Shown here one piece after another: positions 8,603-61,607 of a DNA stretch of 64,000 nucleotides. This stretch comes from Erythrobacter rubeus (lineage in GTDB: Bacteria; Pseudomonadota; Alphaproteobacteria; Sphingomonadales; Sphingomonadaceae). The notes beneath the pieces are model-generated. The model searched no databases, was not told the DNA's origin, and saw only the letters and a program-made list of their open reading frames with translations. Within the stretch, counting starts at the first letter, position 1. Every line of letters starts with the position of its first letter. A program made the position numbers and the translations under genes. The stretch spans positions 1,222,457 through 1,286,456 of the forward strand of contig NZ_JACXLC010000001.1 in assembly GCF_014705715.1 (NCBI RefSeq), given 5' to 3'.

Positions 8603-9805
8603 TCAGTACAGCAGGTGCCCTCTCACCTGCTCGATCCAGGCCGCTTCGTCAGTCGAGGCGAGCGCATCGAGATCGTCGGGCATGGCACTTGGATCATCGA
8701 CCCATTCGCGCAAAGCCGGTCCGCCATTGATCACATCGATTGCGAGAACATCCTCGGTATACTCGTATTTGAAATCGGTCCCGCGCCAGATCCGATAGCC
8801 TGGATAAAGCCGTCTGATCGCTTTGAAAGCGAGCGCCTGCAACCGCCATGGCTTGAACGAATCGTGATCGTAATGCGGGCCTTCTGCGTGGACCATCAAG
8901 GCATTGCAGAGCGTACCTGCATGCTTGTGGAAGGTCGGCTCGAACCAGCAATCGCGTAGAGCGCAACCATTTAGCCAATCCGGTGCAAGCTTGCGCATCT
9001 CTGCCAGCACAGCCTTTGCATCCACATCCGGCGCGCCGAACAGAACCTCGAGAGGGCGCGTGGTTCCCCGCCCCTCGCTGACGGTCGCGCCTTCGATCAT
9101 AACCGTACCGGCATAGGCGCGCGCCATGTTCACATTGGCAGCATTGGGCGAGGGGTTGATCCAGACGCGGTCCACCGGCCAGCCATGACCGGGGCCATCG
9201 GGCTTCCAGTCTTCCATCTTCACAACGCGATAGCCAACGTCCAAGCCGAAATGCTCGATGAACCAATGCCCCATCTCGCCCATCGTCAGGCCGTGGCGCA
9301 TCGGCATGGGAGCCGCGCCAACGAAGCTCTCGTTACCAGGAACCAACAGCGTGCCCTCGACAGCACGGCCCGCCGGATTGGGACGATCGAGAACCCACAC
9401 TTCCTTGCCAGTTTTCGCCGCCTCTTCAAGCAGATACAGCAGAGTAGTGACAAAGGTGTAGATGCGGCAGCCAAGGTCTTGCAGATCGAACAGGAATACA
9501 TCCGCGCTCGTCATCATTTGCCCGGTGGGGCGCCGCACCGGGCCGTAGAGCGAGAACACCGGAATGCCGTATTGCGGATCCGTTTCGTCCGCCGTTTCGA
9601 CCATGTTGTCCTGCTTATCGCCCTTGAGACCATGCTGCGGACCGAAGGCGCTGGTGACATTCACACCCGCAGCGATCAGCGCATCAAGGCTATGGGTCAG
9701 ATCTTCGGCCACGCTCGCAGGGTGCGCGACAAGGGCGACGCGCTTTCCCTGCAATTCGCTAAGCAATTGCGGGTCGGCGAGCAGGCGGTCGATTCCAAAC
9801 TTCAT
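8603..9805 (-). CDS. NamZ-like protein (DUF1343), possible exo-N-acetylmuramidase
   Basis: This 400-residue protein belongs to the DUF1343 family, whose characterised member NamZ removes terminal N-acetylmuramic acid from peptidoglycan fragments. Family blocks seen include GIDRLL, FGPQHGLKGDKQDNM, SLYGPVRRPT, FLFDLQDLGCRIYTF, VLDRPNPAGR and EGRGTTRPLE. The chosen ATG (9805) starts at the conserved block; the longer frame to 9895 would overlap the divergent tspO start. No signal peptide is visible, so it appears cytoplasmic, consistent with cell-wall recycling. It is followed after three bases by the hydroxylase-like gene. Confidence 0.85.
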   Translation of the reverse strand: MKFGIDRLLADPQLLSELQGKRVALVAHPASVAEDLTHSLDALIAAGVNVTSAFGPQHGLKGDKQDNMVETADETDPQYGIPVFSLYGPVRRPTGQMMTSADVFLFDLQDLGCRIYTFVTTLLYLLEEAAKTGKEVWVLDRPNPAGRAVEGTLLVPGNESFVGAAPMPMRHGLTMGEMGHWFIEHFGLDVGYRVVKMEDWKPDGPGHGWPVDRVWINPSPNAANVNMARAYAGTVMIEGATVSEGRGTTRPLEVLFGAPDVDAKAVLAEMRKLAPDWLNGCALRDCWFEPTFHKHAGTLCNALMVHAEGPHYDHDSFKPWRLQALAFKAIRRLYPGYRIWRGTDFKYEYTEDVLAIDVINGGPALREWVDDPSAMPDDLDALASTDEAAWIEQVRGHLLY

Positions 9806-18346: not shown

Positions 18347-18763
18347 TTAACGGGAGATGGGAGAAAGCGCGCGCTCATCATCGGCTTCCGGATCGAGCCT
18401 GCGATAAAAGCATGATCGCGCACCTGTATGGCAGGTCGGACCATCGGCCTTTGCTCGGATCACCAACGCATCCTGATCGCAATCTACGAGGATCTCTTCG
18501 ACGTTGAGGTAGTTGCCGGAAGTTTCACCTTTCAGCCACAGCTCTCCGCGAGAACGCGACCAGAAATGCACTCGCCCGGACTCTCTTGTTTTAGCCAAGG
18601 CTTCAGCATTCATGAATGCAACCACGAGCACCTCATTCGATTCGGCATCGACCACTACAGCTGTCAGCAAACCGCCCGAATCGAATTTCGGAGCAAAAAC
18701 CGAACCGGATTCTCGCTCCACTTTGGAAATTGAATTGGCATTCACGGTCACTCGGCTCCTCAT
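18347..18763 (-). CDS. hisI: Phosphoribosyl-AMP cyclohydrolase
   Basis: This is the zinc enzyme that opens the adenine ring of PR-AMP in step three of histidine synthesis. It has 138 residues, the normal length for a stand-alone HisI without a HisE domain. Signature blocks are [50 protein letters not shown] and ARSCFYR; the Asp and Cys residues in the last two blocks bind magnesium and zinc. No other his genes are nearby. Confidence 0.94.
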
Positions 18764-48272: not shown

Positions 48273-49304
48273 TCACCGCTGCACTCGGCCTGACCCGTCA
48301 CCGCTCATGAGCTTTTCGACCTCAGGTACGGTCACGCGGTTGAAATCGCCCATGATGGTGTGCTTGAGCGCGCTCGCGGCGACCGCGAATTCGAGGCTTT
48401 GCTGACGGTCTTTATAAGCGTTGAGGCCGAAGATCAGTGCCGAGGCGAAGCTGTCCCCACCACCGACGCGATCGACGATGTCGGTCAGTTCATATTTGCG
48501 CGACAGCATGAAGCCATCATCGCGGGTGCGCAGGCAGGCCGACCAGTTGTTGCGATCCGCGCTCAGGCTTTCGCGAAGCGTAATCGCGATCGTGTGCATG
48601 TCCGGATAGGTGTCCAGCACCTTCTGGCCCAGCGCTTCATATTTGGCGGTGTCGAGCTCACCCGACTCCACATCGACATCGACCGAAATATCGAGCGACT
48701 TCTGGCAGTCTTCCTCGTTCGCGATGCCGACATCGACGTACTTGACGAGTTCGCGCATGACTTGCGGAGCGGTCTTGCCGTATTTCCAGAGCTTGCCGCG
48801 AAAGTTGAAGTCGCAGCTGACGGTAAGTCCGGCATCCTTGGCGGCTGTGACGCAAGCCATCGACAGGTCTGCGGCCGATTGGCTGAGCGCTGGAGTGATA
48901 CCGGTGATGTGAAGCCACTTTGCGCCTGCAAAGATGGTAGGCCAGTCGAATTCATCGGCGCTCGCATTGCAGATCGAAGAATTCGCGCGATCATAGATGA
49001 CCTTGGACGGGCGCTGGTTAGAGCCGGTTTCGAGAAAGTAAATTCCGACCCGGTCGCCCGATCGGCTGACATGCGCGGTATCGACGCCGAACTTGCGCAG
49101 TTCCATGATGGCGTTGTCGCCGATGTCATTGTTCGGCAGCGCGCTTACGAACCCGGCATCAAGACCGTAATTGCTGAGCGCGACCGCGACATTGGCCTCG
49201 CCACCACCAAAAGTCGCCTCGAACTCGGGGGACTGGAAAAATCGCTGATGGCCCGGCGTTTTGAGCCGAAGCATGATTTCACCGAAAGACAGGAATTCAG
49301 CCAT
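48273..49304 (-). CDS. kdgK: 2-keto-3-deoxygluconate kinase
   Basis: This 343-residue PfkB-family sugar kinase phosphorylates KDG to KDPG, the step before aldol cleavage in alginate and pectin breakdown. It opens [20 protein letters not shown] and has the first PfkB block [20 protein letters not shown]. The second signature [20 protein letters not shown] includes the catalytic Asp. Start at 49304, 16 bases after eda; no clear Shine-Dalgarno, so translational coupling with eda is likely. It is the last gene of the alginate operon. Confidence 0.93.
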
Positions 49305-49320
49305 GGGAAGGAGCTTTCGT

Positions 49321-49962
49321 TCAGCGACCTGCTTTGGCGATGGCCACTGCCTCGCTCGCCAGGTTGGTGATTTTGGAATAGTCGGCGATTGCGACGGCGT
49401 CCTTGGGCGTAAGCCAGCTGCCACCGCAGGCCAGCACACTGGGAAGTTCGAGAAATTCTGCGAGGTTGCGGGCTGACACGCCGCCCGTCGGCATGAACCG
49501 CATCTCGCGAAAGACCGAGGACAACGCCTTGAGCATGGGCACACCGCCCGCGAGGCTTGCGGGGAAGAATTTGACCTCGCGCAGGCCCAGCGCAAAGGCG
49601 CGCTGGACTTCACCCGCAGTCATGGTGCCCGGAAAGAATGGGATGCCCTCGTCCAGGCAGTATAGAGCAATCTCGTCAACGAGGCCGGGCGAGACGATGA
49701 ATTCTGCTCCGCTCGCCCGCACCGACTTGGCCTGATCGAGGGTCAGAACGGTTCCCGCGCCAACAATCAGCCCCTCGGTTTCGGCAAGGATCGCTTCCAT
49801 GCCTTTTTGCGCGTCTGAGCTTCGCATGACCACTTCGAGCACGGCCAGCCCCCCGGCGGCCAAGGCTTGGGCAATCCTCACCGCGCGTGAAGGATTGTTC
49901 TCGCCGATTAGCGGGACGACAGGCGCGGCGGCCAGGCGTTCAGGAAGTGTGTCGCTCATCAT
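49321..49962 (-). CDS. eda: KDPG/KHG aldolase
   Basis: This 213-residue class I aldolase splits KDPG into pyruvate and glyceraldehyde 3-phosphate. The Schiff-base lysine is K131 in REVKFFPAS, the catalytic glutamate is E43 in VLEVVMRS, and the phosphate loop is [10 protein letters not shown]. It lies between the DEH reductase and kdgK genes, so it serves the uronate pathway. Start at 49962 or 49959 (double Met). Confidence 0.94.
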
Positions 49963-49971
49963 CTCATCCCA

Positions 49972-50724
49972 TCATGAGAAGGCAAGGCCGCCATTGATGT
50001 CGATATTCGCGCCGGTGATGAAAGAGGCTTCTTCCGAAGCGAGATAAGCGACGAGATCGGCGGTTTCGTCTGCACGACCCTGACGCTTGAGCGGGGTTGA
50101 ATTGGCGACATTCTCGCGCGCGGCATCCGGGGTGAACTTGTCGTGGAACGTCGTTGCAATCATGCCAGGGCAGATCGCATTAACCCGGATGCCCTTTGGA
50201 CCAAGCTCTTTCGCAAGGGCGCGGGTCATCGTCATCACCGCGCCTTTCGATGTGGCATACGCGATGGCTCCGCCACCTCCGCCATCGCGTCCGGCGAGGC
50301 TCGCAAGGTTCACGATCGCGGCGCCTCCACCCATATGCGGCACGGCGGCCTTGCAGGCGAGGAACGTCGAGGTCGTGTTGAGCTGCATGACGAAGTTGAA
50401 GAATTCCTCGTCCATTTCGGCGAGTGTTTTGCGCGCGACAAGGCCGCCTGCATTGTTGACCAACAGGTGGATTTCATCGCTGAAAGCCTCACGGGTTGCA
50501 GCGATCAATGCCTCGACATCGGCTGACTTCGTGACGTCCGCCTTTACCTTGATACCCTTGCCACCGGCGGTTTCGATCTCGGCAATTGTGGCGTCAGCGT
50601 CCTTCTCGTTGCTGTTGTAATTGACAACGACACTCGCGCCTTCGCTGGCGAGCTTGACGCAAATTGCACGCCCGATGTCGCGGCTGCCTCCGGTCACCAC
50701 TGCGGTCTTGCCTGCGAATTTCAT
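49972..50724 (-). CDS. SDR, likely DEH reductase of alginate catabolism
   Basis: This is a 250-residue short-chain dehydrogenase with TGGSRDIG (11-18), NNAG, Ser142, Tyr156 and Lys160 (YATSK). From its position in the operon it most likely reduces 4-deoxy-L-erythro-5-hexoseulose uronate (DEH) to 2-keto-3-deoxygluconate, the step between KdgF and KdgK; Sphingomonas A1 uses SDRs for this. Its cofactor preference cannot be settled by eye. It is nine bases upstream of eda. Confidence 0.9.
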   Translation of the reverse strand: MKFAGKTAVVTGGSRDIGRAICVKLASEGASVVVNYNSNEKDADATIAEIETAGGKGIKVKADVTKSADVEALIAATREAFSDEIHLLVNNAGGLVARKTLAEMDEEFFNFVMQLNTTSTFLACKAAVPHMGGGAAIVNLASLAGRDGGGGGAIAYATSKGAVMTMTRALAKELGPKGIRVNAICPGMIATTFHDKFTPDAARENVANSTPLKRQGRADETADLVAYLASEEASFITGANIDINGGLAFS

Positions 50725-50736
50725 TGATAGTCCCCC

Positions 50737-52056
50737 TTAGGAATGAGCGCGGCCAGCGGCCGCTGTCGGTTTCAGTGGTTTGATTTCGCCGCACAGCAGC
50801 CAGACGCTGGCAATCGCTGTTAGCGAAAGCGCTGCGCCTAGGACGAAGACAGAGTAGTAGTTCGCCCCTGCGGTCATGATCGGCACAAGATAGGTCAGCG
50901 CGGCCGCGCTTAGCTTCGCACCCATTCCGGCGATGCCCGACAGCGTGCCCACGGTACGCTTGCCGTAAAGATCGCTTGGAAGGGTCTGCACGTTTCCGAT
51001 TGCGGTCTGGAAGCCAAACAGGATCGTGAACATGAGCCACAGCGCGAGCCACGGTGTTGATGCCGCCGACAGGGCAAGAAGCGCGGGCAGCATGATGAGG
51101 CTGCCGAGCGTGATCGTGAGCTTTCGGGTCGCGTTGACGCTCCAGCCCGCCTTCAGGCGGTTTTGGGCAAGCAGCCCGCCAAACCACGCCCCCAGCATCG
51201 CACCGACAAACGGCAGCCAGCCCGACGCTGCGACGTCCTTCACGTTGAAATTATGGACCTCGACGAGATAGGTCGGAATCCACACGATGAAGAGCCACCA
51301 GATCGGGTCGATCGCGGCCGAGGCGATGATAACGCCCCAGCTTTCCTTGCGCGACAGCAGCTCGCCTGTTCCTGGATTGTAGCCGTCCCCATCGTCGCTT
51401 CCGCTGTCTTCGACTTTCTGCCCAGTAAGGATGTATTCGCGCTCTTCATCGGACAGCCAGTCATGCCCTTGTGGCGGGGCCTTGACGATGAACCACCACG
51501 GCACGAGCCACAGCAAGCCAACCAGACCGACGAGGATGAAAATGATCTTCCAGTCGAGGAACACCGCCATGTAGCCGATCAGCGGGATCGAGATGATACC
51601 GCCGATGGCAGCGCCGGAGTTGAAGATGCCTTGGGCGAGCGCGCGCTCCTTGGTCGGGAACCACTCCGCGTTCGCCTTGGTCGCGCCGGGCCAGTTGCCC
51701 GCTTCTGCGACGCCGAGGATTGCGCGGAAGATGCTGAAGCTCAGAACGCCTTGTGCAAGAGCGTGGGCGGCAGTCGCGAGCGACCATACGCCGATCGAGA
51801 GCACGAAGCCGAGCCGCGTTCCGATCCAGTCGAAAATCTTGCCGAAAATCGCCTGGCCCGCCGCATAGGCAAAGATGAAGACCGTGCTGATGACACCGAG
51901 GATGTATTTGTGCCCGTCGGCATCCATGTCCGGAAACAGTTCCGGAGCGATGTTTCCCGGCCATAGCACGTTGATCGTCTGGCGGTCGATATAGTTGATG
52001 ATGGTTGCGAGCGCCACGAGGCCCACAACCCACCAGCGAAAGCCTTTAATCTTCAT
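50737..52056 (-). CDS. MFS transporter of the hexuronate family
   Basis: This 439-residue protein has twelve hydrophobic segments and the ACS/ExuT-type MFS signature: NYIDRQTINVLWP near the front and GVAEAGNWPGATKANAEWFP around helix 5. The family imports hexuronates with protons, so uptake of the unsaturated uronate or DEH across the inner membrane is its likely task. It lies 12 bases upstream of the reductase gene and three bases downstream of kdgF. Confidence 0.9.
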   Translation of the reverse strand: MKIKGFRWWVVGLVALATIINYIDRQTINVLWPGNIAPELFPDMDADGHKYILGVISTVFIFAYAAGQAIFGKIFDWIGTRLGFVLSIGVWSLATAAHALAQGVLSFSIFRAILGVAEAGNWPGATKANAEWFPTKERALAQGIFNSGAAIGGIISIPLIGYMAVFLDWKIIFILVGLVGLLWLVPWWFIVKAPPQGHDWLSDEEREYILTGQKVEDSGSDDGDGYNPGTGELLSRKESWGVIIASAAIDPIWWLFIVWIPTYLVEVHNFNVKDVAASGWLPFVGAMLGAWFGGLLAQNRLKAGWSVNATRKLTITLGSLIMLPALLALSAASTPWLALWLMFTILFGFQTAIGNVQTLPSDLYGKRTVGTLSGIAGMGAKLSAAALTYLVPIMTAGANYYSVFVLGAALSLTAIASVWLLCGEIKPLKPTAAAGRAHS

Positions 52057-52059
52057 GGA

Positions 52060-52422
52060 TCAAGCCCCCTCGCTCAGGAAATCTTCGCGCAGCGGGCTGA
52101 ACGTGTCGATCAGCACGCCAGCCTCCAGACACACCGCTCCATGGTCGAGATGCGGGGCTACGTAGAAGCTGTCGCCCGCTTCGAGCACGCGCTTCTCGCC
52201 ATCGATGAAAACCTCGAACCTGCCGCTTTCGACATAGGTCGACTGGCTATGCCGGTGAGCATGCACTTGCCCGACCGCGCCGCGATCGAACCAGACCCGC
52301 ACGACCATGATTTCCGGCCCGTAGCCCAGGATCTGTCGCGTTATGCCCTCGCCCAGATTTTCCTTGGGGGTGTCCTTCGCGACTACGAAGGGCGAGCTGT
52401 GCGCTTCTGCAATTGCAGCCAT
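52060..52422 (-). CDS. kdgF: KdgF-like cupin, unsaturated uronate linearisation
   Basis: This 120-residue cupin converts the cyclic 4,5-unsaturated monouronate from lyases to its linear keto form. Metal ligands expected from KdgF are present: His54, His56 or His58, Gln60 in VHAHRHSQST, and His94 in APHLDHG. KdgF acts in both pectin and alginate pathways; the alginate lyases beside it point to the latter. It begins two bases after the PL17 stop. Confidence 0.9.
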   Translation of the reverse strand: MAAIAEAHSSPFVVAKDTPKENLGEGITRQILGYGPEIMVVRVWFDRGAVGQVHAHRHSQSTYVESGRFEVFIDGEKRVLEAGDSFYVAPHLDHGAVCLEAGVLIDTFSPLREDFLSEGA

Positions 52423-52424
52423 TG

Positions 52425-54620
52425 TCAGTTATCCTCTCCAGGAAGCGCAATCACCGCTGCGAACCCATCCCATTCTAGGCTCTCGCCATCGAGCGTGACG
52501 CTATGCGCCGTTGCTGGATCAGGATTGTGCGACACGGCGATCGCAAAGCGCTGCCCTGATTTCAGGGTCAGGCGAACGAGGTCCATTCCATCGATGCGCT
52601 GATGATTGAGGTCAGAAACGAGGCTGCGGCTGTCGAGCGTCTGTTCGGCCGCGCCGTCATAGCTACCATGGGCTTCGAGCAGGCTCGCAAAGCTTGCCTC
52701 GCCCTCGCGTTGGGCGCGCAGCATGATCAGCGGTTCGCGCCGCAGGTTGAATTCAGGATCGTTCGCACCGCTCTCACCGAGGATGGCGGTCAGCGGTCCA
52801 TTCCCGGCGAACCGGTAGGTGTAAAAGCGCCCGTCGAGGATCCAGGTCAGCGCACCTCTGCCATCCTGGAGGCCCGCTTCGGCGTCGACCCAGATATGCT
52901 GATAGCCGTTGTCGCTTCCCAATACGGGGCGCTCGGCTGTGTTCGAAATCGGCTCGAAATCGAACTCCATGATGTGCCCGGAATAGTGCAAGGGCAGATC
53001 GTATTGGTGCGGCTCGTCGCTCTGCGCGTGGACGAGGTCGATCACCAGCGGAGCTTCCAGTCCGGCGATTGTCGGCATCAGCCAAGTGCGCCGCATGGTG
53101 ACGCCCGGATAGGCGCTGTCCATAACGCTGCTCGTTACCTGGAGGCCGGGCGCGTCAGAGAAATACAGCTGCGTTGGCCAGAGTGTGTCGGCGAGCTTGG
53201 CATCCCCGCCAAAGTGGCTCGTTTGATCGACCACAAGCGTATTGTGCGCGACCGAGCTTTTAGCCCATGTCGTGTTTTCCGGCAGGTAACGCCCGCCGCG
53301 CTTGGCTTCGATATTGAGGAATCGCGCTGCGCCGTAATCGCGCACAATCTCGTTACCATTGTCGTAAAGCTGCCAGGCAAGCTTGTCGAAATGGCCGTGC
53401 CCCATACCCTGCGAGCTGTTCTTCGCGATGAGCGCCGTCGCAGGCTCGCCTTCGGCATTGGTTGGTCCCTGCCGCAGTATAGCGACAGCGCCCTCATCGC
53501 CGTCCGGCCCGTCGCTCAGCAGCAGCGTGCGAAACGGGAACGGCTCTGCCATGCCCGCAGCAAGGTCGCGCGACACCAACGCGCCATTCGGTCTGAGAAC
53601 GGTGCGCCCCTGAAAATCGGCAACCGACAGAAGCGCAGGATCGCGCGTCTGACCGTAGGCGATGGCAACGCCCTCATAGAGCTCGGCTGTGCGCAGGCTC
53701 TTGTCGCGGATCGCATCGTTGAACGGGAAGAAATATCCGCGATAGCTAAGCTGCACGGTCGTCCGCAGCGCCTTCAGCAGGATGCCGTCGCGATGTTCGA
53801 AGATGCGCCGTTCGGGCTCGTTCCGCTCGATCGCATCGGCGAAGACCAGGAACGGGAGCAAGGCAAACCGCTGATAATACGGCCCCTCGGTATAATAGCC
53901 GTCTGGTGAGAACAACAGCTCGGTCTGGCGGATGAAGCCGGTTTCACCACTCTTGTCCGAACCGAGCAATGCGCGATCGACCATGTCCTGATCGCCCAGC
54001 AGATAGCCGGTCATGCCGACCCCGGCCGTCGCCCAGGTGGCATGGTTGTGAATGCGGTTAAACGTCCGCTCGGATTCAACCGAAAGGAAATGAACCGCAG
54101 GTCGAAAGACGTTGTCGTCGATCCGCTGGCGGTCTTCGGCGTTCAAAGTATCGCGAATATCGCCATATCCCTGCACGGCATGGACGAGCCACATCGCATC
54201 GTTGAGCACCTGCCAGAAAAGGCGGCCCACGTTCTGATTGGCCTGCGCCGGATGATCGTCCAGCGTTGGATAAAGCTCGGCATATTCGAGCAGCATATTG
54301 CGCACGTAGTCGCGGTAGCGCTCTTCGCCGGTGATCCGGTAAAGCTGCCCGCCTTGGTAGATCGCACGGAAGTTGCGTTTGTGCTGTTCGTGGGTGTAGC
54401 CGCCGCCCGGATCTTTCGGGACGGGCACGACCACACCCTCGGTGATCATTCCGTCAACGAATTCGCGCGCCCGCTCCAGTTCTGCCGCAAACAGTGGAGA
54501 GTGGGACGAGGCTGGCTCAGTCGCATCAAGCGAGGTGTTGTCTTGGGAAGCAACCGCAAGAGCCGCCTGTGGCAGGCTGCCAGCGATGATCGTTGCTGCG
54601 AGAAGAGCTGCGCGGCTCAT
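52425..54620 (-). CDS. PL17 oligoalginate lyase, exported
   Basis: This 731-residue lyase cuts alginate oligosaccharides to unsaturated monouronates. The N-terminal signal peptide (MSRAALLAATIIAGSLPQAA) suggests export to the periplasm. The alpha/alpha domain (about 45-370) contains NHATW (N192, H193) and GYYTEGPYYQRF (catalytic Tyr248 or 249), matching the PL17 enzyme Alg17c. The heparinase II/III-like beta domain starts with GMGHGHFDKLAW. It overlaps the PL6 stop by four bases and has KdgF directly downstream. Confidence 0.92.
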   Translation of the reverse strand: MSRAALLAATIIAGSLPQAALAVASQDNTSLDATEPASSHSPLFAAELERAREFVDGMITEGVVVPVPKDPGGGYTHEQHKRNFRAIYQGGQLYRITGEERYRDYVRNMLLEYAELYPTLDDHPAQANQNVGRLFWQVLNDAMWLVHAVQGYGDIRDTLNAEDRQRIDDNVFRPAVHFLSVESERTFNRIHNHATWATAGVGMTGYLLGDQDMVDRALLGSDKSGETGFIRQTELLFSPDGYYTEGPYYQRFALLPFLVFADAIERNEPERRIFEHRDGILLKALRTTVQLSYRGYFFPFNDAIRDKSLRTAELYEGVAIAYGQTRDPALLSVADFQGRTVLRPNGALVSRDLAAGMAEPFPFRTLLLSDGPDGDEGAVAILRQGPTNAEGEPATALIAKNSSQGMGHGHFDKLAWQLYDNGNEIVRDYGAARFLNIEAKRGGRYLPENTTWAKSSVAHNTLVVDQTSHFGGDAKLADTLWPTQLYFSDAPGLQVTSSVMDSAYPGVTMRRTWLMPTIAGLEAPLVIDLVHAQSDEPHQYDLPLHYSGHIMEFDFEPISNTAERPVLGSDNGYQHIWVDAEAGLQDGRGALTWILDGRFYTYRFAGNGPLTAILGESGANDPEFNLRREPLIMLRAQREGEASFASLLEAHGSYDGAAEQTLDSRSLVSDLNHQRIDGMDLVRLTLKSGQRFAIAVSHNPDPATAHSVTLDGESLEWDGFAAVIALPGEDN

Positions 54621-56878
54621 TGGGTGTCTCCATCACCGAAGACATTCCCAGAGAGTGAGGCGCGGTGCTCGCCATCGAAGATCAGCTCTTCGAGGATCAA
54701 ATCGCCGGTCGCGGCAAACGCGTTGTCGGTGATCGCCGTCTTGGGCGTGCCGACTGTGTGGACGACGCGGAACGGTGCCGAGGCGCGCACAGCGTTGTCC
54801 TCGACCGCAGCGATCTGCACGCCATGAAGATGGATTGACCCGCCCGTTCCGTTGGTCGCGGCAAGACCGACATCATCGAGCGCGTTGCGCGCGATCCTCA
54901 CATTCGGTCCAAACGTGCTTTCATCCCGTCCGCCGCGATAAATGTCAGCCAGCGGCCCGCCGACGCGGGCGAACGCGCTTTCAGTGATATCGAGATATTC
55001 GACGTTGTATTGGCCATAATCCTCGGTCTCCGCGGCGGCGGAGACGATCGTTCCGGTGATGTCGGCAAAGCTGCTGCGACGGATTGAGATGCGATCGGCC
55101 AGCGTGTTCTTGCCCAAGGTTAGGACGTTGAACGACTTATTGACCGCAAGATTGCGCACGGCCACGCCATCCATCGCGATCCGCATGTTGGACTGGATCG
55201 GAAAGATGGTCGTCCGGATCACCGAATTGCCAACCGAATCCGGGGCAAGCTCGCCATCGATTGCGAGGCCTTGCAGCATCAGCTCGCCGCCTTCGCGCAG
55301 CTCGAATAGCGAGGGGCGGGTGAACAGGATCGTGGTGGCATCCGATCCAGCACCCCTGATCGACACGGTTGCTTCAAGCGGGATCGAGCGGTCTACGATA
55401 AAATCACCAGCGGCTAGAGCCAGAACGTCACCGTCCTTCGCAGCCATCGCCGCTTCCGCGAGAGTGCCTTGCCCCGGGGCGACCTCGAAAACGCGGCCTG
55501 AAGAGCTGAAGTCGGTGCGCTCGCCCGGCTTGGCATACCAATCGACGCCGACCTCATCGAGTGACACCACGCGAAGGTCGCGCGGAGCGCCAACATCGGC
55601 GAGTTCCGGAGCTGTGGGGTAAAGCAGTCCATTCTCGCCGCGCTCCATCGCGACCGGGGCCTGCGTCAGCGATGCAAGTTCGTCAGCGACGCCGCCCTGC
55701 GCGACACGATTACCGCTAAAGGCAATGCCCGAAACATCGTCATAGACTTCGAGAAACGCCTCCCCCTCGAGTCCGCTCATGAGGTTGCGAGCAAAAATGC
55801 TGCCGCTGGGAGCCGCCGAGCGCTCTTCATCCGCGCCGACATTGAAAGCCACTCTGCGACTATCGACAATTGTGTTGTTCTCGATGCGCGCATTGGCCAC
55901 TTCGACATAGCGGTTCACTGGCGAATTCGGCACACCGTTCATGATCGCGAGCGCGCTGGAGAACGCTTCGCCGCGCAGGCCCTCAAGATAATTGCCTCGA
56001 ACCGTTTGCCCGCGATTGATGACGCGAATGCCGCCCGTGTAATCGGTCCCTCCGCCGAGGAAAACGTTGCCCTCAACGACGTTGTTATCGCCATGACGCA
56101 AAGTCAGCGTTCCGCGGGAGCGCAGGAAGACATTGCCGCGAAAGACGTTACCGCCGGACTTGGACGAAATGATTTCCACCTCGCCGCCAGTGCGATCAAA
56201 GACGTTGTGAGCGACCAGCGTGTTCGAATTGAACATCGAGTAGCGGCTCGTGCCGATCCGCAACGTCTCGCCGCCATTCGATCCAAGCACAGAGCGTGGG
56301 CCGAAATAATTGTATTCAATCCGGTGGTTGTTCTCGCGGCTTTCCTCGCTGTCGAGCCGTACAGCGAGCGTCACGCCCTTGTTGGTCTTGCCGGTGAGAT
56401 GATTGTGATCGAAGCGGTTGTTGCTGCCGTAGATGCCGACCCAGTAATCGCTCTCATATCGGTCGGGCTTGCTGAAGCCGTCGACAACGACTTGCGTGAC
56501 CCGGCTGTTGCTCGCCTGGTCTTTCGCCGAAACCCGAAAGGAGATCACCTCTCCTCTAGGACTGAACCCGTCGCGGAAAACTAGGCCTGACACCACGATA
56601 TGCTCGCCGCCAATGCGCAGACTCGATTGCCCGGTAAGAATGACATCGCCGGGCCTTTCTGCAATGATAGTTATCGGTGCATCGGCACTGCCTCCACCGG
56701 TAATGACGAGTTCGAAGTCGTCCCATTCGCCTGAAGCCAGCACGATCGTGTCGCCAGCTTCGATATCAGCCGCCGCCGCCGTATATTCCGCTTGAGTGCT
56801 GACAAGGATGCGCTCGGCGAGAGCGGGGCTCGAAAACGCGCAAAATGCTGCTGAAACAAGGCAAAGCCTCGCTACCAT
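54617..56878 (-). CDS. PL6 alginate lyase, exported, calcium-type
   Basis: This 753-residue protein is built of two parallel beta-helix domains with a signal peptide (cut after SPALA). Residues expected for the calcium-dependent AlyGC type of PL6 align with a constant shift: N201, E233 and E235 as calcium ligands, K240 as base (EIISSKS) and R261 as acid (TLTLRHGD). The length and two-domain build also fit AlyGC, an exolytic enzyme, so cleavage of poly-guluronate to monomers is plausible. It is first in the lyase operon, behind a strong promoter. Confidence 0.92.
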   Translation of the reverse strand: MVARLCLVSAAFCAFSSPALAERILVSTQAEYTAAAADIEAGDTIVLASGEWDDFELVITGGGSADAPITIIAERPGDVILTGQSSLRIGGEHIVVSGLVFRDGFSPRGEVISFRVSAKDQASNSRVTQVVVDGFSKPDRYESDYWVGIYGSNNRFDHNHLTGKTNKGVTLAVRLDSEESRENNHRIEYNYFGPRSVLGSNGGETLRIGTSRYSMFNSNTLVAHNVFDRTGGEVEIISSKSGGNVFRGNVFLRSRGTLTLRHGDNNVVEGNVFLGGGTDYTGGIRVINRGQTVRGNYLEGLRGEAFSSALAIMNGVPNSPVNRYVEVANARIENNTIVDSRRVAFNVGADEERSAAPSGSIFARNLMSGLEGEAFLEVYDDVSGIAFSGNRVAQGGVADELASLTQAPVAMERGENGLLYPTAPELADVGAPRDLRVVSLDEVGVDWYAKPGERTDFSSSGRVFEVAPGQGTLAEAAMAAKDGDVLALAAGDFIVDRSIPLEATVSIRGAGSDATTILFTRPSLFELREGGELMLQGLAIDGELAPDSVGNSVIRTTIFPIQSNMRIAMDGVAVRNLAVNKSFNVLTLGKNTLADRISIRRSSFADITGTIVSAAAETEDYGQYNVEYLDITESAFARVGGPLADIYRGGRDESTFGPNVRIARNALDDVGLAATNGTGGSIHLHGVQIAAVEDNAVRASAPFRVVHTVGTPKTAITDNAFAATGDLILEELIFDGEHRASLSGNVFGDGDTQ

Positions 56879-56910: not shown

Positions 56911-56979
56911 ACTATATCGCGAGTCGATTTATTGTCAATCAATCTGGCATATCACATGTTCATAATGTGTAATGCCAAT
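56911..56979 (-). promoter_or_regulatory. PL6 operon promoter with UxuR-like half-sites
   Basis: On the minus strand TTGACA (56938-56933) is separated by 16 bases from TATAGT (56916-56911). Half-sites ATTGGCAT (56979-56972) and, inverted, ATGCCAGA (56950-56943) lie upstream of the -35 box, 21 bases apart. A CACAT/ATGTG palindrome sits between. The half-site core is that of the UxuR/ExuR operator. Confidence 0.7.
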
Positions 56980-56983
56980 CGGC

Positions 56984-57724
56984 CTAGCCGATTTTGGCGG
57001 CAGCCAGGAAGCGTTCACGACTTTGCGAAGCCTGTTGCTGCACTTCTTCCAGCGCCTTTCGCTCTGTCGCCTCAAGCATGTTTTCAAGCAGCCGATGGAA
57101 ATGCTCCCGCATGGCCGCACGTGCACCTGCGGGGTCACGCGCCTTGAGGGCATCGAACACTGCGCGGTGCTCTTCCGTACGGGACTCCGCATCATGGATG
57201 CATACTGCCTGATATGTCGCTTTCACTTCGGGTATCTCTTCCCGCATGCGCCAAAGCGACTGGATCGTATGCACCATCGCCGCGTTGTTCGACGACTCAG
57301 CAATCGTGAGGTGAAATTGCTCGTCGGCCTCATCAGCCTCTTCAGGCGTGCCGGTTCGCATGCGTTCGACGAGAATTTCGAGCCGAGCGATCGCTTCATC
57401 CGAGATGTGGTGAGCCGCGAGTGCCGCGGATTCAGACTCTACAAGCAGGCGCGCCTCGGTAACTTCGAAAGCGCTTGCGCTTGGGAGCGCGTCGCCCACC
57501 AATGGCTTGTTTTCGCTTACATACACACCGGAGCCCGTCTTGATTTCCAGACGGCCAACGGCTTGCAAGGCGATTTCAGCTTCGCGGATTGTAACCCGGC
57601 TGACACCTAGCTTTTCAGCAAGCTCGCGCTCCCCCGGCAATCTTGTCCCGGGAGGGTAAGCGCCTTCGTCGATCAGTTGAGCGATCTGCTCGGCCACCGA
57701 TTGAAAAAGTCGCTTACTGTTCAT
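56984..57724 (-). CDS. GntR-family regulator, FCD type
   Basis: This 246-residue regulator has a winged HTH (about 8-70; GTRLPGERELAEKLGVSRVT) and an all-helical FCD ligand domain. The metal-binding set of FCD proteins is visible: D134, H138, H186 and H208. UxuR, ExuR and alginate regulators of this group respond to uronates, so a pathway intermediate such as KDG or DEH is the likely ligand. It lies between the receptor and PL6 genes and probably represses the locus, including itself. Confidence 0.92.
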   Translation of the reverse strand: MNSKRLFQSVAEQIAQLIDEGAYPPGTRLPGERELAEKLGVSRVTIREAEIALQAVGRLEIKTGSGVYVSENKPLVGDALPSASAFEVTEARLLVESESAALAAHHISDEAIARLEILVERMRTGTPEEADEADEQFHLTIAESSNNAAMVHTIQSLWRMREEIPEVKATYQAVCIHDAESRTEEHRAVFDALKARDPAGARAAMREHFHRLLENMLEATERKALEEVQQQASQSRERFLAAAKIG

Positions 57725-57763
57725 CTTGGATCGCGCTCCAGATTGGGGGTGATGATCGGTCCT

Positions 57764-57775
57764 ATACCAATTTTC
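57764..57775 (-). promoter_or_regulatory. Candidate operator of the GntR gene
   Basis: TATACCAATTTT (plus strand) contains the UxuR/ExuR half-site ATTGGTAT in inverse orientation, about 40 bases upstream of the gntR start codon. A TTGTCT hexamer lies beside it on the minus strand, so it is well placed for autoregulation. Confidence 0.6.
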
Positions 57776-57806
57776 CTAGACAATTGAACTCTTCAATCCG
57801 CGATCC

Positions 57807-57848
57807 TGCCAGCCGCCGCCGATGCCCCCAATGGCGACGGCTGGCAGA
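57807..57848 (-). terminator. Hairpin between receptor and regulator genes
   Basis: CTGCCAGCCG and CGGCTGGCAG form a perfect 10-bp stem with a 22-base loop, 20 bases after the receptor stop. There is no T-run. It may be a weak terminator or an mRNA-stabilising 3' end that lets receptor and regulator be expressed at different levels. Confidence 0.5.
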
Positions 57849-57868
57849 TCGCCGGTGAGCTGCCCTCT

Positions 57869-60800
57869 TTAGAAACGCAGCGTCGCGCCGAACGTGAGCC
57901 GACGATCAGGAAGCCCCTGGAAACACAGCAAAGCACCATCGTTGACGCAGAATTGGCTGATGTCCGACTTGGTAAGGTTCACACCTTCTACACCGACGCT
58001 CAGATAGTCCGTTACATCGTAAACGACGCTCGCGTTCAACTGACCCCGAGAGTCGGTGACGACCGGGAAGCCGAGTGTTGAGTTGAGCGACGCGCCGCCC
58101 GCCGTATCGAGTGTGCGGAACGCGTCGCGCCAGGTGTAACGGGCACGAGCCGAGAGGCCGTATTTCTCGTAGTAGAGAGTGACGTTGTAGGCATTCTCCG
58201 AGAAATCGAGCAGTCCCTGAACGGCTTCGACCGGATCGGGAACATTTGGATTAATGGCCTCGAAAATCTGCTGGCCACGACCCGATGCGGTCTGGGTTGC
58301 CTCGCCTCCACCGAAGTCCTGCCACGTATAGTTAGCAATGATGCCGAAGCCCGAGGCAAATCCCAGCGCATCCTCGAATTGAGAGAGGTCGTACTGGAAA
58401 GAAAACTCAATGCCGGTTTGCGTGGTGTTGGCAGAATCGTTGACGATCGTTTCAAGTGGCACACAAAGACCGTTGCCCTGATCCGCGTCGGACGCGAGAA
58501 CATTACGGTCAGGCACGGGGTTGAAGATACCACCACCTTCGCAAGGAGGAGTAATGTCGCGGAAGCCGGTTACCGGATCTTCGAACGCATCCTCGACCTG
58601 CGTCACGAACAGGTTGGTGCGGTCCTTGTGGAAGAAACCGATGCTGATCAGTGACGACGGCGCGAAGTACCACTCAAGCGAGGCATCGTAGGATTGGACC
58701 GTCTCTGGTGCGAGGTTTGGATTACCGAGTTCTACGGCATTGTTCGGCCCCGTTGGGAACGACACTGATAGCGACAAATCGTCGAAATCGGGACGGTTGA
58801 TGTCTTCGGTGAAACTAGTACGAAGAAACAGATCGTCGGCCAGCTCCGCGACCACATTGATACGCGGCATAAACTCACTGTAGCTGCCGCTAGCGGCAAC
58901 CGGCGAGGCAACGCCGTTAGCGATTTCGTTGCCGAACGAGTCGACACTAGTGTCCACCCAGCGGAAACCGATATTCCCGCGAACTGGGCCAGCCTCGAAA
59001 TTGGCCTGCGCATAAAGCGCATGCGTCTCTTCTTCGATCCGGAAAGAGGCTCCGAGGTTTCCTGCTGCATTGGGATCGATATCGGCCAGGAGACGCCCGC
59101 CATCGGCAATCGCAGCCTGCCCGCCTGGCGTCGCATCCAGCGCAGCTTGAAGGGCAGCGATCACGTTATCCCGATCGGAAAATGCCTGGTCGGGATCGAT
59201 CACCACAAAGTTACGGAATGCCAGGGCCCGCCCATCAGCCTCATCGAAATTGTCCGGTCCGGGAACAATCAAACCCGCCAGCACTGAGCCGCTGGGGCTG
59301 TTTGCTATCGCGCCAGTGCCGAAGGTGGATCGGAGCTGAGTAAATTCCGTGGAAGTATCGTTGTAACGATAGCCTGCGTCGACCGAAGTGATGAAGCCCA
59401 GCACACCATCAAGATCGAGCGTGGTATCAATGCGGAAGGCATCCTCCTCGTTTTCGGTCATGTTGTTGCTGTTAGTAACAGCGTCAAGCACCGTATTGCT
59501 GGGATCAAGCAGCTGCTCGACCGTAGGCGCAAACGGCGAGTCGAAATCGAGGCCGAAAGTCAGCGCACCACCACGCAGATCGTAAATGAACGGAACGCTG
59601 TTATCGTTACTGGTACCATCCAGCGGCGTCAGCGGGTTTGGATTAATGAAGTTGAGCGTGGTGCTCAAATTCGGGTTGGCGGTGTCCGAAGTGGAGCGCG
59701 AGACCTCAATTTGCGTCGTCAGACGACCGGTCGTAAATTCTGTGCCCAACCGATACAGCTCGGTCTCGGTAACACGTGCGCCTGTATCACTGGAGAAACG
59801 AAGGTTCGGGTCATCGTCGTCCTGAGCAAGATTCGGCTGGATGGTGCCAAACAGAGCAGCCTCAATGCTGCCAAGATCAAGGCCGTCCAGGGATCCGAAA
59901 GTGATCGTCTCAAAGCCATCCGGCACATTGACGGTATCGACAGCGCTGACGCCGGAGCCTTGAACACGCGAACTGTCCTGGCGACGCTCCTGATCCTTGT
60001 AGATCACGTCTGCAAAGAACTTCAGGTTGTCGCTTGGTGCCCACTCGAGCGTACCCGCTATGTTGATTGTTTCGAATTCGAAGTTTTCCAGTTCCTGGTT
60101 GAGGAACTGGATGTTCAGAAATGGAAAGTCGGGGCCCGGAGCACCTGCTGCGGTTACGGCTTGGCCAGCGCCGATCAGGTTGTCGCGGTCTACACGCGGC
60201 CGGAAAGAGGTGCCCTCCTGCTCGGTATAGCTCCCGCTGATAACGAAGCCGATTTCCCCGTCACCTGCCTCCCATACATTGCCGAAGTTAGCGGAGAGGC
60301 GAGGCTTCACACTGTCTGATAGCTCGCTGTATTCACCTTGGGCGCGAAACGAGAAGAGCCGGTCGGTAAGTTCGAGCGGTCGGATTGTGCGAAGATTTAC
60401 GGTTCCACCAACCGAACCTTCGATGTTTGCCGCTGTCGGAGCCTTAATTACCTCGACCGCACCGATGATCGCCGAATTGACATCTTCGAAATTAAGTCCG
60501 CCGCGGCCCGTTCCGGTGGCAACGGTCTTAACGCCGTTGATGAGCACCAGGTTGTCGTTTGTGCCGCGAATTTGGACTCCGGTACCAATACCGGCCGTTC
60601 GGGTGATCTGAACCCCGGTGACGTTCTCAAGTACCTCAGCGAGGTTCTGGTCTGGAAGCTTGCCGATATCCTCAGCCTGAATGACCTCGATCAGGCTATC
60701 GGCATTGCGCTTCTCGTTCAGTGCGCTTTGTAGCGAGCCACGAATGCCTGTGACCATAATCACGTTATCTTGATCGTCATCGACAATGGACGCATCCGCG

Positions 60801-60919
60801 TCATTGTCCTGAGCCAAAGCAGCCCCCGGCACCAATCCAATTGCCGAGCCAGCCAGTATGCCAGCGATAAACCGCTGCTTGCGTGCAGAAACGCACGACG
60901 GCGCGAGCCGAATCCCCAT
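57869..60919 (-). CDS. TonB-dependent receptor for alginate oligosaccharides
   Basis: This 1016-residue outer-membrane receptor has a signal peptide (cut after GAALA) and a TonB box region (DNVIMVTGIRGSL). A plug domain follows (LIEVIQAEDIGKLPDQNLAE, GVQIRGTNDNLVLINGV), then a beta barrel ending in RLTFGATLRF. It belongs to the Xanthomonas/Caulobacter receptor class used for complex glycans. Since it neighbours the alginate regulator and lyases, alginate oligomers are the likely cargo. ATG 60919 is preceded by GGGAGAGGG; the longer frame to 60985 includes the promoter. Confidence 0.93.
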   Translation of the reverse strand: MGIRLAPSCVSARKQRFIAGILAGSAIGLVPGAALAQDNDADASIVDDDQDNVIMVTGIRGSLQSALNEKRNADSLIEVIQAEDIGKLPDQNLAEVLENVTGVQITRTAGIGTGVQIRGTNDNLVLINGVKTVATGTGRGGLNFEDVNSAIIGAVEVIKAPTAANIEGSVGGTVNLRTIRPLELTDRLFSFRAQGEYSELSDSVKPRLSANFGNVWEAGDGEIGFVISGSYTEQEGTSFRPRVDRDNLIGAGQAVTAAGAPGPDFPFLNIQFLNQELENFEFETINIAGTLEWAPSDNLKFFADVIYKDQERRQDSSRVQGSGVSAVDTVNVPDGFETITFGSLDGLDLGSIEAALFGTIQPNLAQDDDDPNLRFSSDTGARVTETELYRLGTEFTTGRLTTQIEVSRSTSDTANPNLSTTLNFINPNPLTPLDGTSNDNSVPFIYDLRGGALTFGLDFDSPFAPTVEQLLDPSNTVLDAVTNSNNMTENEEDAFRIDTTLDLDGVLGFITSVDAGYRYNDTSTEFTQLRSTFGTGAIANSPSGSVLAGLIVPGPDNFDEADGRALAFRNFVVIDPDQAFSDRDNVIAALQAALDATPGGQAAIADGGRLLADIDPNAAGNLGASFRIEEETHALYAQANFEAGPVRGNIGFRWVDTSVDSFGNEIANGVASPVAASGSYSEFMPRINVVAELADDLFLRTSFTEDINRPDFDDLSLSVSFPTGPNNAVELGNPNLAPETVQSYDASLEWYFAPSSLISIGFFHKDRTNLFVTQVEDAFEDPVTGFRDITPPCEGGGIFNPVPDRNVLASDADQGNGLCVPLETIVNDSANTTQTGIEFSFQYDLSQFEDALGFASGFGIIANYTWQDFGGGEATQTASGRGQQIFEAINPNVPDPVEAVQGLLDFSENAYNVTLYYEKYGLSARARYTWRDAFRTLDTAGGASLNSTLGFPVVTDSRGQLNASVVYDVTDYLSVGVEGVNLTKSDISQFCVNDGALLCFQGLPDRRLTFGATLRF

Positions 60920-60957
60920 TATCCCTCTCCCATGTGATTCTTTAGTTATTGGGCCAG

Positions 60958-61026
60958 ACGATAGATTGGCATAAATTATTGTCAACCCAAGCTACAGACC
61001 TATGTTGAAAACTTTGTCATACCAAT
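60958..61026 (-). promoter_or_regulatory. Receptor promoter with UxuR-like half-sites
   Basis: Minus-strand TTGACA (60985-60980) and TATCGT (60963-60958) are 16 bases apart. ATGCCAAT (60972-60965) sits between the two boxes and ATTGGTAT (61026-61019) lies upstream. The -35 flank (TTGACAATAA) is identical to that of the PL6 promoter. Confidence 0.7.
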
Positions 61027-61607
61027 TTGCAAACCCGTCGATGCCAGTTTGGGGCCCATCGTGTGTTCGGCAGGTGGGAAGAGCCGGAGCTGCAAAAGTT
61101 CAGATGTAGACACGGTACCGGCTGACGATCCTTCTCGCGCAGCGGTTGGGTGTAGAACAGCGGATGCAAATTCCTTTTGGTCCATGGTTGAGCGATGGGG
61201 CTGGACAACATTTAGCTGCTCAGGGGCAGCGCTGCGCAAGATTGAGAAGCCCCGTAATGCCCCAACGGGCCATTCCATCGATCAGCTTTAGAGTCACCCG
61301 TGCTTTGAATTAAGAGACAGATGAATCGGCGTCAGCATCTGAGGAAGAGTGTGCCAAGGATACACAGTCGCGCCCCACGACAACTTTTTGGACATTACCG
61401 GACGTCCGCAATGAAGTCCGGAAGCCGGATGGCAGCTTTCCGCTTCAAGACCCCCGGTAGCGGACTGACCGCAATCGGCCCAAACGCGGTAACGTGACGT
61501 AGCCGTGCAACACCGGTCAATCGGGCTGTCGATGCGCGTGGCACCAGAAAGATCGCTTCTCGATCACGTGACCTACCAGTGCGCCCTGAGCGGTCTCGAA
61601 GCGTTGC
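61027..61607. other. Gene-free stretch upstream of the receptor
   Basis: About 580 bases without a supported gene. Short open frames (for example minus 61000-61278) overlap the promoter and show no domain. This is the upstream boundary of the alginate locus. Confidence 0.55.

Follow-up and report, generated by a model that had tools for sequence, protein, structure and literature searches.

Among the closest described systems, AlgO of Sphingomonas sp. A1 is a member of the GntR family, and AusR of Zobellia galactanivorans is reportedly treated in Dudek et al. 2020. AlgO regulates an alginate cluster in a sphingomonad (PMC8778563). AusR, from the Bacteroidota, is described as a GntR-family repressor of an alginate locus (PMC8286568) and reported to bind promoters via single, double or triple operator copies (PMC7874173); its likeness to the regulator considered here lies in that description. 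For the FadR subfamily (ExuR, PdhR, LldR, GlcC), the available text of Suvorova et al. 2015 (PMC4494728) gives the operator consensus TKGT-N3-ACMA, with a GT-AC gap of 2 nt in UxuR palindromes and 3 nt in ExuR palindromes. The E. coli NanR operator is the direct repeat (GGTATA)3, and the accessible part of that account states that NanR needs close repeat spacing and does not bind when spacers are lengthened (PMC8012715). The available sections of PMC10016265 contain nothing on a UxuR operator, and our searches of the open-licence literature brought up no description of an operator of the kind analyzed below.

Here we analyze a window of 64,000 nucleotides from Erythrobacter rubeus and describe a cis-element shared by the promoters of a PL6-type lyase and a TonB-dependent receptor, most likely the target of the adjacent GntR protein as predicted from sequence.

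Results

The window contains the following genes:

48273-54620, minus strand: rest of the presumed operon, encoding a PL17-type oligoalginate lyase, a cupin, an MFS transporter, an SDR, KDPG aldolase and a KDG kinase-like pfkB protein
54617-56878, minus strand: PL6-type lyase gene, first of the presumed operon (PF14592, 346 bits; Pfam name Chondroitinase B)
56984-57724, minus strand: gntR, GntR-family regulator of FadR type, wHTH plus FCD (PF00392, 68 bits, cut-off 27; PF07729, 84 bits, cut-off 24.3)
57869-60919, minus strand: TonB-dependent receptor gene (TIGR01782, 506 bits)

From gene spacing we infer that PL6, PL17, cupin, MFS, SDR, eda and kdgK form a single operon; the PL17-type product scores 964 bits against the oligoalginate lyase model, below its cut-off of 1400. 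GntR carries both domains of the FadR subfamily, and its structure model (mean pLDDT 82, pTM 0.64) places seven helices after residue 84, in line with the all-helical C-terminal domain of that subfamily, which has six or seven helices. The best Foldseek hits of the model are GntR/FCD regulators, NanR and DhdR-DNA among them; whole-chain TM-scores are low, at 0.38-0.49 (query-normalised) for the matches listed. In our mapping, Arg33 and Gly64 match residues that the available text of PMC4494728 ties to the G in TGGT.

The sequence-only reading of this DNA had matched its octamer, ATTGGTAT, to the UxuR/ExuR operator of E. coli. GntR shares its domain type with UxuR and ExuR, the hexuronate repressors of that species (77/228 and 72/238 aligned residues identical), and its NCBIfam equivalog scores are 105.4 for UxuR (cut-off 442) and 118.7 for ExuR (cut-off 396). 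Exact ATTGGYAT is absent upstream of E. coli K-12 uxuA, uxuR, exuT/uxaC and exuR; the uxuA region has ATTGGTCAACCATT (ATTGGT), and the three other upstream regions are only partially alike. The match shrinks to a short common core, and on the scores, far below the cut-offs, together with these E. coli regions we reject GntR as a UxuR or ExuR.

ATTGGYAT or its inverse occurs exactly at 56972-56979, 57764-57771, 60965-60972 and 61019-61026. These four sites had been listed before, the second one base off (57765-57772), together with a fifth at 56943-56950 credited with one mismatch; on the plus strand it reads TCTGGCAT and has two. The window holds seven exact octamers versus 3.1 expected, a number reached in 5 of 100 shuffles. 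Four lie inside three short upstream regions (429 bp in total; post hoc Poisson P ~2e-7) and the others at 18734, 32453 and 55535, the last within the PL6 gene, so that, contrary to the earlier claim, octamers do not always fall in promoter regions. Genome-wide there are 145 exact octamers versus 27 for the reversed control, and because of these 145 copies the bare octamer alone is weak evidence. Its conserved extension, ATTGGYATNACA, has two copies in the 3.04 Mb genome, exactly the PL6 and receptor promoters (one match for the reversed control). A whole-genome search for fused ATTGGYAT...ATRCCAAT with a gap of 0-25 bp gave no match. The half-sites are real and above chance level: coincidence, namely short AT-rich octamers that happen to lie near promoters, draws on how common the octamer is, but all conservation and control tests refute it for the receptor and PL6 promoters, where we give it practically no credence.

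The receptor promoter is composed as follows:

60958-60963, minus strand: predicted -10 element TATCGT
60965-60972, minus strand: inverse half-site ATGCCAAT, within the 16-bp spacer
60980-60990, minus strand: site 3, TTGGGTTGACA, merged with the -35 box (TTGACA, 60980-60985)
60996-61003, minus strand: site 2, ATAGGTCT, a degenerate half-site that occupies the +23 register and for which many relatives have GGTATG
61012-61026, minus strand: site 1, ATTGGTATGACAAAG, predicted to be a FadR-type operator of lopsided form, TGGT-N3-ACAA; its start lies 41 bp before the initial T of TTGACA
61041-61048, minus strand: additional half-site, ACTGGCAT, with one mismatch, lying 22 bp above site 1

The PL6 promoter has a similar set:

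56911-56916, minus strand: predicted -10 element TATAGT
56933-56943, minus strand: half-site-like ATTGATTGACA merged with the -35 box (TTGACA, 56933-56938)
56943-56950, minus strand: inverse half-site ATGCCAGA, two mismatches, 29 bp from the site 1 start
56965-56979, minus strand: site 1, ATTGGCATTACACAT, with its start 41 bp before TTGACA

Site 1 reads as a lopsided FadR-type operator, TGGT-N3-ACaa: TGGT-ATG-ACAA at the receptor, where the GT and AC boxes are 3 nt apart as in FadR-subfamily operators, and TGGC-ATT-ACAC at PL6. Its TGGT-N3-AC core is like the FadR-subfamily consensus, whereas its degenerate right half is not (PMC4494728, available text); AC is present in 26/40 receptor and 19/26 PL6 sites. 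The earlier view that the half-sites are spaced apart rather than fused thus gives way to a fused, lopsided operator with a 3-nt spacer, found as a perfect N3 palindrome, ATTGGTNNNACCAAT, in the promoters of four relatives, 31, 41, 41 and 42 bp before TTGAC. Palindromes with spacers from N2 to N7 are all enriched at site 1, an effect of the fixed left half and the A-rich flank; N3 is singled out by these four perfect matches versus one perfect N2, the 2-nt-spaced palindrome of the L064 receptor promoter.

ATTGGT-N3-ACCAAT-like sites also stand upstream of most relatives of gntR themselves. Among 22 such genes (40-45% identity, up to 250 bp upstream), the N3 palindrome occurs with at most two mismatches in 9 (randomised mean 0.26, maximum 2) and with at most three in 18 (mean 1.4, maximum 4). 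At the latter threshold, N2 (8) and N4 (7) also exceed the randomised maximum of 5, and N3 is far higher.

Conservation was surveyed in 50 loci including the window, over stretches that began 300 bp before each gene and took in its first 30 bp, with start codons extrapolated from alignments. An alignment was used only if it began by residue 60 and scored at least 80 bits, and for SDR and kdgK only at 50% identity or more; numbers per gene differ accordingly. Of 60 receptor promoters (a set that includes weak receptor matches, 24-35% identity), 40 have a half-site 39-42 bp before TTGAC, as do 26 of 39 PL6 promoters, leaving 20 and 13 outside this canonical register. Such a half-site is found at 1/50 gntR starts and at no start of PL17 (0/44), MFS (0/44), SDR (0/40), kdgK (0/20) or cupin (0/25); eda was counted in the upstream survey and is absent from these register counts. 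The half-sites are thus conserved at the receptor and PL6 promoters of relatives, the very comparison that the sequence-only reading had proposed, and the lack of conservation that was to count against it did not appear.

Half-site registers peak at 18, 31, 40-41 and 53-54 bp, a further half-site merges with the -35 box, and direct repeats recur at spacings of 13 and 22-23 bp (35 direct pairs in receptor promoters versus 0.4 in shuffled ones). GGYMT at +22/+23 occurs 27 times in the 40 canonical receptor promoters, ATRCCA 53-55 bp from site 1 six times in the same 40, and ATRCCA at 29-30 eleven times in the 26 canonical PL6 promoters. In the logos, either base directly before TTGAC is G in 92% of the 40 receptor promoters, and the 26 PL6 promoters read A92 T65 T96 G100 A61 ahead of TTGAC. 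Promoters for logos and spacer identities were chosen for a site 1 with no more than one mismatch, for TTGAC and for the register, so the conservation of TTGAC itself is uninformative there; the register distance counts are unselected. Helical-phase statistics are strong only through the 40-41 peak: with it removed, the phase is weak in receptors (R 0.24) and 0.63 in PL6, mostly from one register.

The proposal of looping or paired dimers fares unevenly against this arrangement. The direct repeats, spaced by 13 and 22-23 bp, are consistent with several dimers, in a weak form. We found no support for DNA looping; the repeats span only ~55 bp. An arrangement of independent dimer sites, in which nothing beyond site 1 and, at most, a second palindrome matters and the other half-sites are decoration, would account for the perfect N3 palindromes of the four relatives and for the degeneracy of the remaining half-sites, but neither the four register peaks nor the excess of direct pairs at fixed spacings is expected from it, and we regard it as rather unlikely. 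We favor phased tandem sites.

Of 397 genomes, 27 contain a strict composite pattern and none its reversed control. A gntR orthologue is present in 26 of these 27 (45 gntR genomes overall, matched at >=53% identity; Fisher 1.6e-27); the pattern is missing from 19 of the 45. This co-occurrence may in part reflect inheritance of the whole cluster. It nevertheless argues, together with the sites upstream of 18 of the 22 gntR relatives, against an element bound by a different regulator encoded elsewhere. One genome, G248, which has the pattern and no gntR orthologue (best match 30% identity), speaks for such a regulator, which we consider very improbable. The window also encodes AraC- and LuxR-like regulators, so named from a reading of ORFs rather than a family search. 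They are not syntenic, and as none of 54 loci contained a homologue at E 1e-8, they were rejected as binders.

Both promoters carry TTGACAATAA with a 16-bp spacer, as had been noted from the sequence; it has two genome copies versus 0.05 expected, and the spacer leads to TATAGT at PL6 and TATCGT at the receptor. We reject it as a special element, since its trailing ATAA is not conserved across relatives. TTGACA-N15-17-TATNNT occurs six times in the genome (reversed control, 2), two of them the receptor and PL6 promoters. GG precedes the -35 box in one of the six (receptor), GA in one (PL6) and neither in the other four, small numbers that lean toward GG/GA being special to these promoters; elsewhere in related loci only four promoter-like sites were available for testing GG before TTGACA, too few, and GGTTGACA alone occurs 13 times versus 24 for the reversed control.

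Activator-dependent promoters usually have poor -35 boxes. That both promoters rank among the six TTGACA-N15-17-TATNNT matches therefore fits repressed rather than activator-dependent promoters. GntR could still be an activator or dual regulator, with the site 1 dimer (~-68 from the presumed start) touching RNA polymerase and with repression in the absence of ligand coming from the half-site that is merged with -35. Rigid spacing upstream of -35 would suit an activator too: site 1 keeps to 40-41 bp before -35 despite diverged spacers, with exceptional registers at 31 and 53-54. In 27 receptor promoters of the 41-bp register (24 non-redundant), the spacers have mean pairwise identities of 0.39 and 0.34 and a constant length; the identities of site 1 and TTGAC (0.92, 0.90) count little, both having been selected for. 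The -10 element of relatives' receptors is moreover poor, at least 4/6 matches to TATAAT at a 16-bp spacer occurring in only 4/40 canonical receptor promoters, versus 16/26 for PL6, so that the argument from a strong promoter to repression holds better for this genome and PL6 than for receptors generally. Against activation stand the two strong promoters of this genome and the described relatives, which are repressors in the accessible accounts (AusR, PMC8286568; NanR, PMC8012715), and we judge it unlikely.

The promoter of gntR itself contains one further candidate:

57755-57771, minus strand: ATTGGTATAGGACCGAT, a possible autoregulatory site overlapping the extended -10-like TGGTATAGG

Exact half-sites occur upstream of gntR in 18 of 50 loci, ten of them at a constant place (-33 to -48). 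This site is the weakest member of the set; chance may account for it, and it may be an extended -10 box.

Discussion

Altogether, our results favor a model whereby the element is an operator array of the adjacent FadR-type GntR, which probably represses the receptor and PL6 promoters via phased tandem sites; we infer its binding, repression, cooperativity and effector alike. In this model, one GntR dimer would be anchored on site 1 (ATTGGTATKACA), centred ~34 bp upstream of the -35 hexamer, and further dimers or subunits would occupy half-sites in fixed registers, at +23 and at +36 merged with the -35 box. In some promoters, these would be joined by a half-site 13 bp upstream, or by an inverse half-site between -35 and -10. 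In the absence of substrate, the GntR complex would cover the promoter and repress it; upon alginate breakdown, a uronate-type effector, probably DEH or KDG, would release GntR, inducing the PL6-PL17-cupin-MFS-SDR-eda-kdgK operon together with the receptor gene.

A parallel is found in NanR, whose asymmetric dimer, which combines a consensus half with a non-consensus half, offers a natural model for the lopsided site 1, and whose operator likewise has a GGTAT core in direct repeats (PMC8012715, accessible part). Unlike the closely spaced repeats of NanR, those described here lie 13 and 22-23 bp apart, and GntR lacks the ~32-residue N-terminal extension through which NanR acts cooperatively, its domain match starting at residue 8. 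The locking of these direct repeats to -35 also differs from the FadR-subfamily description, in the available text of which weaker boxes lie 7-12 nt from the site centre (PMC4494728).

We tentatively speculate, with somewhat more doubt than confidence, that the GntR of this clade moved from a single symmetric palindrome, of the kind that most of its relatives at 40-45% identity still have upstream, to an array of half-sites pointing the same way, in steps of 13 and 23 bp, which keeps register with the -35 box and in part merges with it. GntR dimers, head-to-tail or asymmetric, would in that case assemble on the promoter without an N-terminal extension of the NanR type, perhaps through the long C-terminal helix of the model (residues 198-245). 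Such a natural series, with a palindrome at one end and phased direct half-sites at the other, would allow study of how operator geometry shifts while the core recognition sequence of the regulator stays. The analysis also defines, for alginate breakdown in an alphaproteobacterial group with marine members, a regulon that can be tested and an operator that can be searched for in genomes. Finally, we note that four copies of the pattern lie far from gntR (1.4 Mb away or on another contig), 102-109 bp upstream of receptors that are 51-64% identical to the receptor of the window.

The element in the alginate-use locus

Our comparisons indicate that the octamer ATTGGYAT (or its inverse; hereafter the half-site), together with its promoter context in the alginate-use locus of Erythrobacter rubeus, is a real and conserved element that is functional as judged by its footprint. 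It would be an array of operators for a regulator of known class, arranged unlike the published geometries with which we compared it. It offers a new regulon and a clean case of operator geometry under constraint, for which we infer the mechanism. The window belongs to a 3.04-Mb genome and contains the following genes:

57869-60919, minus strand: TonB-dependent receptor, alginate-use locus
56984-57724, minus strand: gntR, encoding a FadR-type GntR regulator, alginate-use locus
56878 down to 48273, minus strand: PL6, PL17, cupin, MFS, SDR, KDPG aldolase and pfkB kinase, in this order and tightly packed

The GntR protein has both a wHTH and an FCD domain. The last helix of its predicted model comprises 48 residues (198-245, where model confidence is moderate) and extends well past the end of the Pfam FCD match (87-210); as modeled, this long helix might have a role in assembling several dimers.

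The sequence-only reading had listed five octamers, four of which are exact (56972-56979, 57764-57771, 60965-60972 and 61019-61026), the second lying one base from the 57765-57772 first given for it; the fifth, at 56943-56950, has two mismatches rather than one. Exact octamers number 145 genome-wide. In the window there are 7, where 3.1 would be expected; as 5 of 100 shuffles reach that number, the bare count tells little. What is unusual about the octamers is their placement and extension, not their number. The extended half-site ATTGGYATNACA has two copies in the genome, found only in the PL6 and receptor promoters (reversed control, 1), and these two promoters are among six near-consensus TTGACA-N15-17-TATNNT promoters genome-wide (reversed control, 2).

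Conservation and geometry of the promoters

Of 397 genomes from the family searched with the GntR protein, 92 have a match with an E value of 1e-45 or lower; in 45 of these the identity is at least 53% (counted from result rows). Around genes of at least 49% identity we collected 48 loci in 44 genomes, added L003 (a further locus) and the window, and mapped genes by tblastn. In stretches that begin 300 bp before a gene and end 30 bp inside it, exact octamers occur at 49/60 receptor, 25/39 PL6 and 18/50 gntR starts, at a single start each of 44 PL17 and 44 MFS genes, and at none of 40 SDR, 12 eda, 20 kdgK and 25 cupin starts. They mostly share the orientation of the gene (receptors, 53 versus 11; PL6, 25 versus 3).

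When each half-site (one mismatch allowed, GG invariant) was set against each TTGAC, distances clustered at 18, 31, 40-41 and 53-54 bp. The 39-42 bp range holds a half-site in 40/60 receptor and 26/39 PL6 promoters, and at no start of the downstream genes included in this count (PL17, MFS, SDR, kdgK and cupin). Direct repeats in receptor promoters are spaced mainly by 13 bp (9 cases) or 22-23 bp (15 cases), together 24 of 35 pairs, whereas shuffled promoters gave 0.4 direct pairs in total. Pairwise identity in the spacers is 0.39 and 0.34 among the 27 receptor promoters with the 41-bp register (24 non-redundant) and 0.41 and 0.61 among the 14 such PL6 promoters (10 non-redundant); the spacers have diverged at unchanged length, and therefore length has been kept and letters have not, above all in receptors. 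Site 1, the half-site about 41 bp upstream of TTGACA, and TTGAC itself were the selection criteria for these sets, so that the degree to which these two are conserved adds no independent evidence; among the unselected parts, identity is 0.81 for the four bases after the octamer and 0.65 for site 2, the half-site 23 bp from site 1.

The consensus receptor promoter reads ATTGGTATGACA, about 14 bp, GGTATG, about 7 bp, GGTTGACA, 16 bp and TAT. The PL6 promoter keeps the outer distance, often has an inverse half-site, ATGCCA, at 29-30 bp (11 matches among 26 promoters) and has ATTGRTTGACA at its -35. A compact PL6 form with half-sites at 0, 13 and 26 bp, placed 31 bp from the -35 and ten bases shorter than usual, occurs at L060, L062, L065 and L069. 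Separately, eight loci (L003, L037, L039, L040, L041, L047, L058 and L069) carry a second, dissimilar receptor (29-35% identity) between receptor and gntR. In five of them (L039, L040, L041, L047 and L058) the promoter of this second receptor has a half-site in the 40-41 bp register.

Site 1 and known regulators

Site 1 has the form TGGT-N3-AC, that of the FadR-subfamily operator of Suvorova et al. (PMC4494728), in which TGGT paired with ACCA is a feature of the subfamily as a whole. Its right half is mostly weak (AC in 26/40 receptor and 19/26 PL6 sites), but four promoters have the perfect palindrome ATTGGTNNNACCAAT 31, 41, 41 and 42 bp before TTGAC, and the L064 receptor promoter has a perfect palindrome with a 2-nt spacer. 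Half-sites had been described as widely spaced rather than fused; further half-sites do exist, but site 1 itself appears to be a lopsided fused operator, and the layout is best read as such an operator plus further half-sites.

The proposed likeness to the UxuR/ExuR operator holds for ATTGGT, present in the E. coli K-12 uxuA region as ATTGGT-CA-ACCATT, and not for exact ATTGGYAT, which is absent upstream of uxuA, uxuR, exuT/uxaC and exuR in K-12; the other regions have partial matches with two or three mismatches. The window's GntR shares roughly a third of its residues with UxuR and with ExuR and scores far below both family cut-offs. E. coli NanR offers a precedent: three dimers bind direct GGTATA repeats, and a dimer holds one consensus and one non-consensus half (PMC8012715). 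NanR requires close repeat spacing and a 32-residue N-terminal extension; the window's GntR lacks such an extension. For the alginate locus of Zobellia, AusR is reported to bind single, double or triple operator copies (PMC7874173).

GntR as the candidate binding protein

Four lines of evidence point to GntR as the binder of the element. The strict composite pattern, which joins the half-site to the -35 block of the receptor and PL6 promoters, occurs in 27 of 397 genomes (reversed control, 0), 26 of which have a gntR orthologue (Fisher 1.6e-27). Four genomes, drafts included, also have it at a distance from gntR (1.4 Mb or a separate contig), where it precedes receptors 51-64% identical to the window's by 102-109 bp, as required for a regulator that acts in trans. 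A search of 54 loci with the AraC- and LuxR-like regulators that neighbor the locus in the window gave no homologue of these two. Finally, 20 further loci contain 22 gntR relatives (40-45% identity), among which an ATTGGT-N3-ACCAAT-like palindrome stands upstream of 9 with at most two mismatches (randomised mean 0.26, maximum 2) and of 18 with at most three (mean 1.4, maximum 4), and its spacer peaks at N3. Against GntR, the strict pattern is absent from 19 of 45 gntR genomes, and one genome without a gntR orthologue (G248; L121, C1:2798000-2817000, site at 9329) has the canonical pattern upstream of a receptor that shares only 25% identity with the window's; this copy could be a relic or a coincidence, or could serve a different regulator.

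The further loci (L126-L145) encode GntR proteins of 40-45% identity, most with ATTGGTCAGGCCAAT-like palindromes upstream, and their examined stretches contain no PL6 or PL17 match. At L117, L118, L119 and L120, receptors remote from gntR (other contig or 1.4 Mb) carry the whole operator-promoter block, so that receptor gene and block seem to move together.

Probable mode of action

Judged by sequence, the PL6 and receptor promoters of this genome are strong. A conserved half-site is fused with the -35 box, and some receptor promoters have a further half-site between -35 and -10. Strong promoters with half-sites at the -35 and in the spacer have the layout of a polymerase-blocking repressor; a repressor on these sites would block polymerase at the receptor and PL6 promoters, with an alginate breakdown product as the presumed effector. 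The fixed upstream register suggests that dimers on neighboring sites are in contact. We retain activation by GntR as an unlikely rival because the fixed register suits it too and because the receptor -10 is poor in relatives, matching TATAAT at four or more places in 4 of 40 promoters (16-bp spacer); the PL6 -10 does so in 16 of 26 (16-bp spacer).

At gntR itself, 10 of the 50 loci, every one with a GntR of at least 78% identity, have an exact half-site between -33 and -48; in the remainder the half-site is scattered or missing. It overlaps an extended -10-like TGGTATAG and may be an autoregulatory site or a plain promoter element. Two gntR paralogues are present in each of four genomes, G297, G355, G023 and G146 (L073; L075; L070 and L072; L084).
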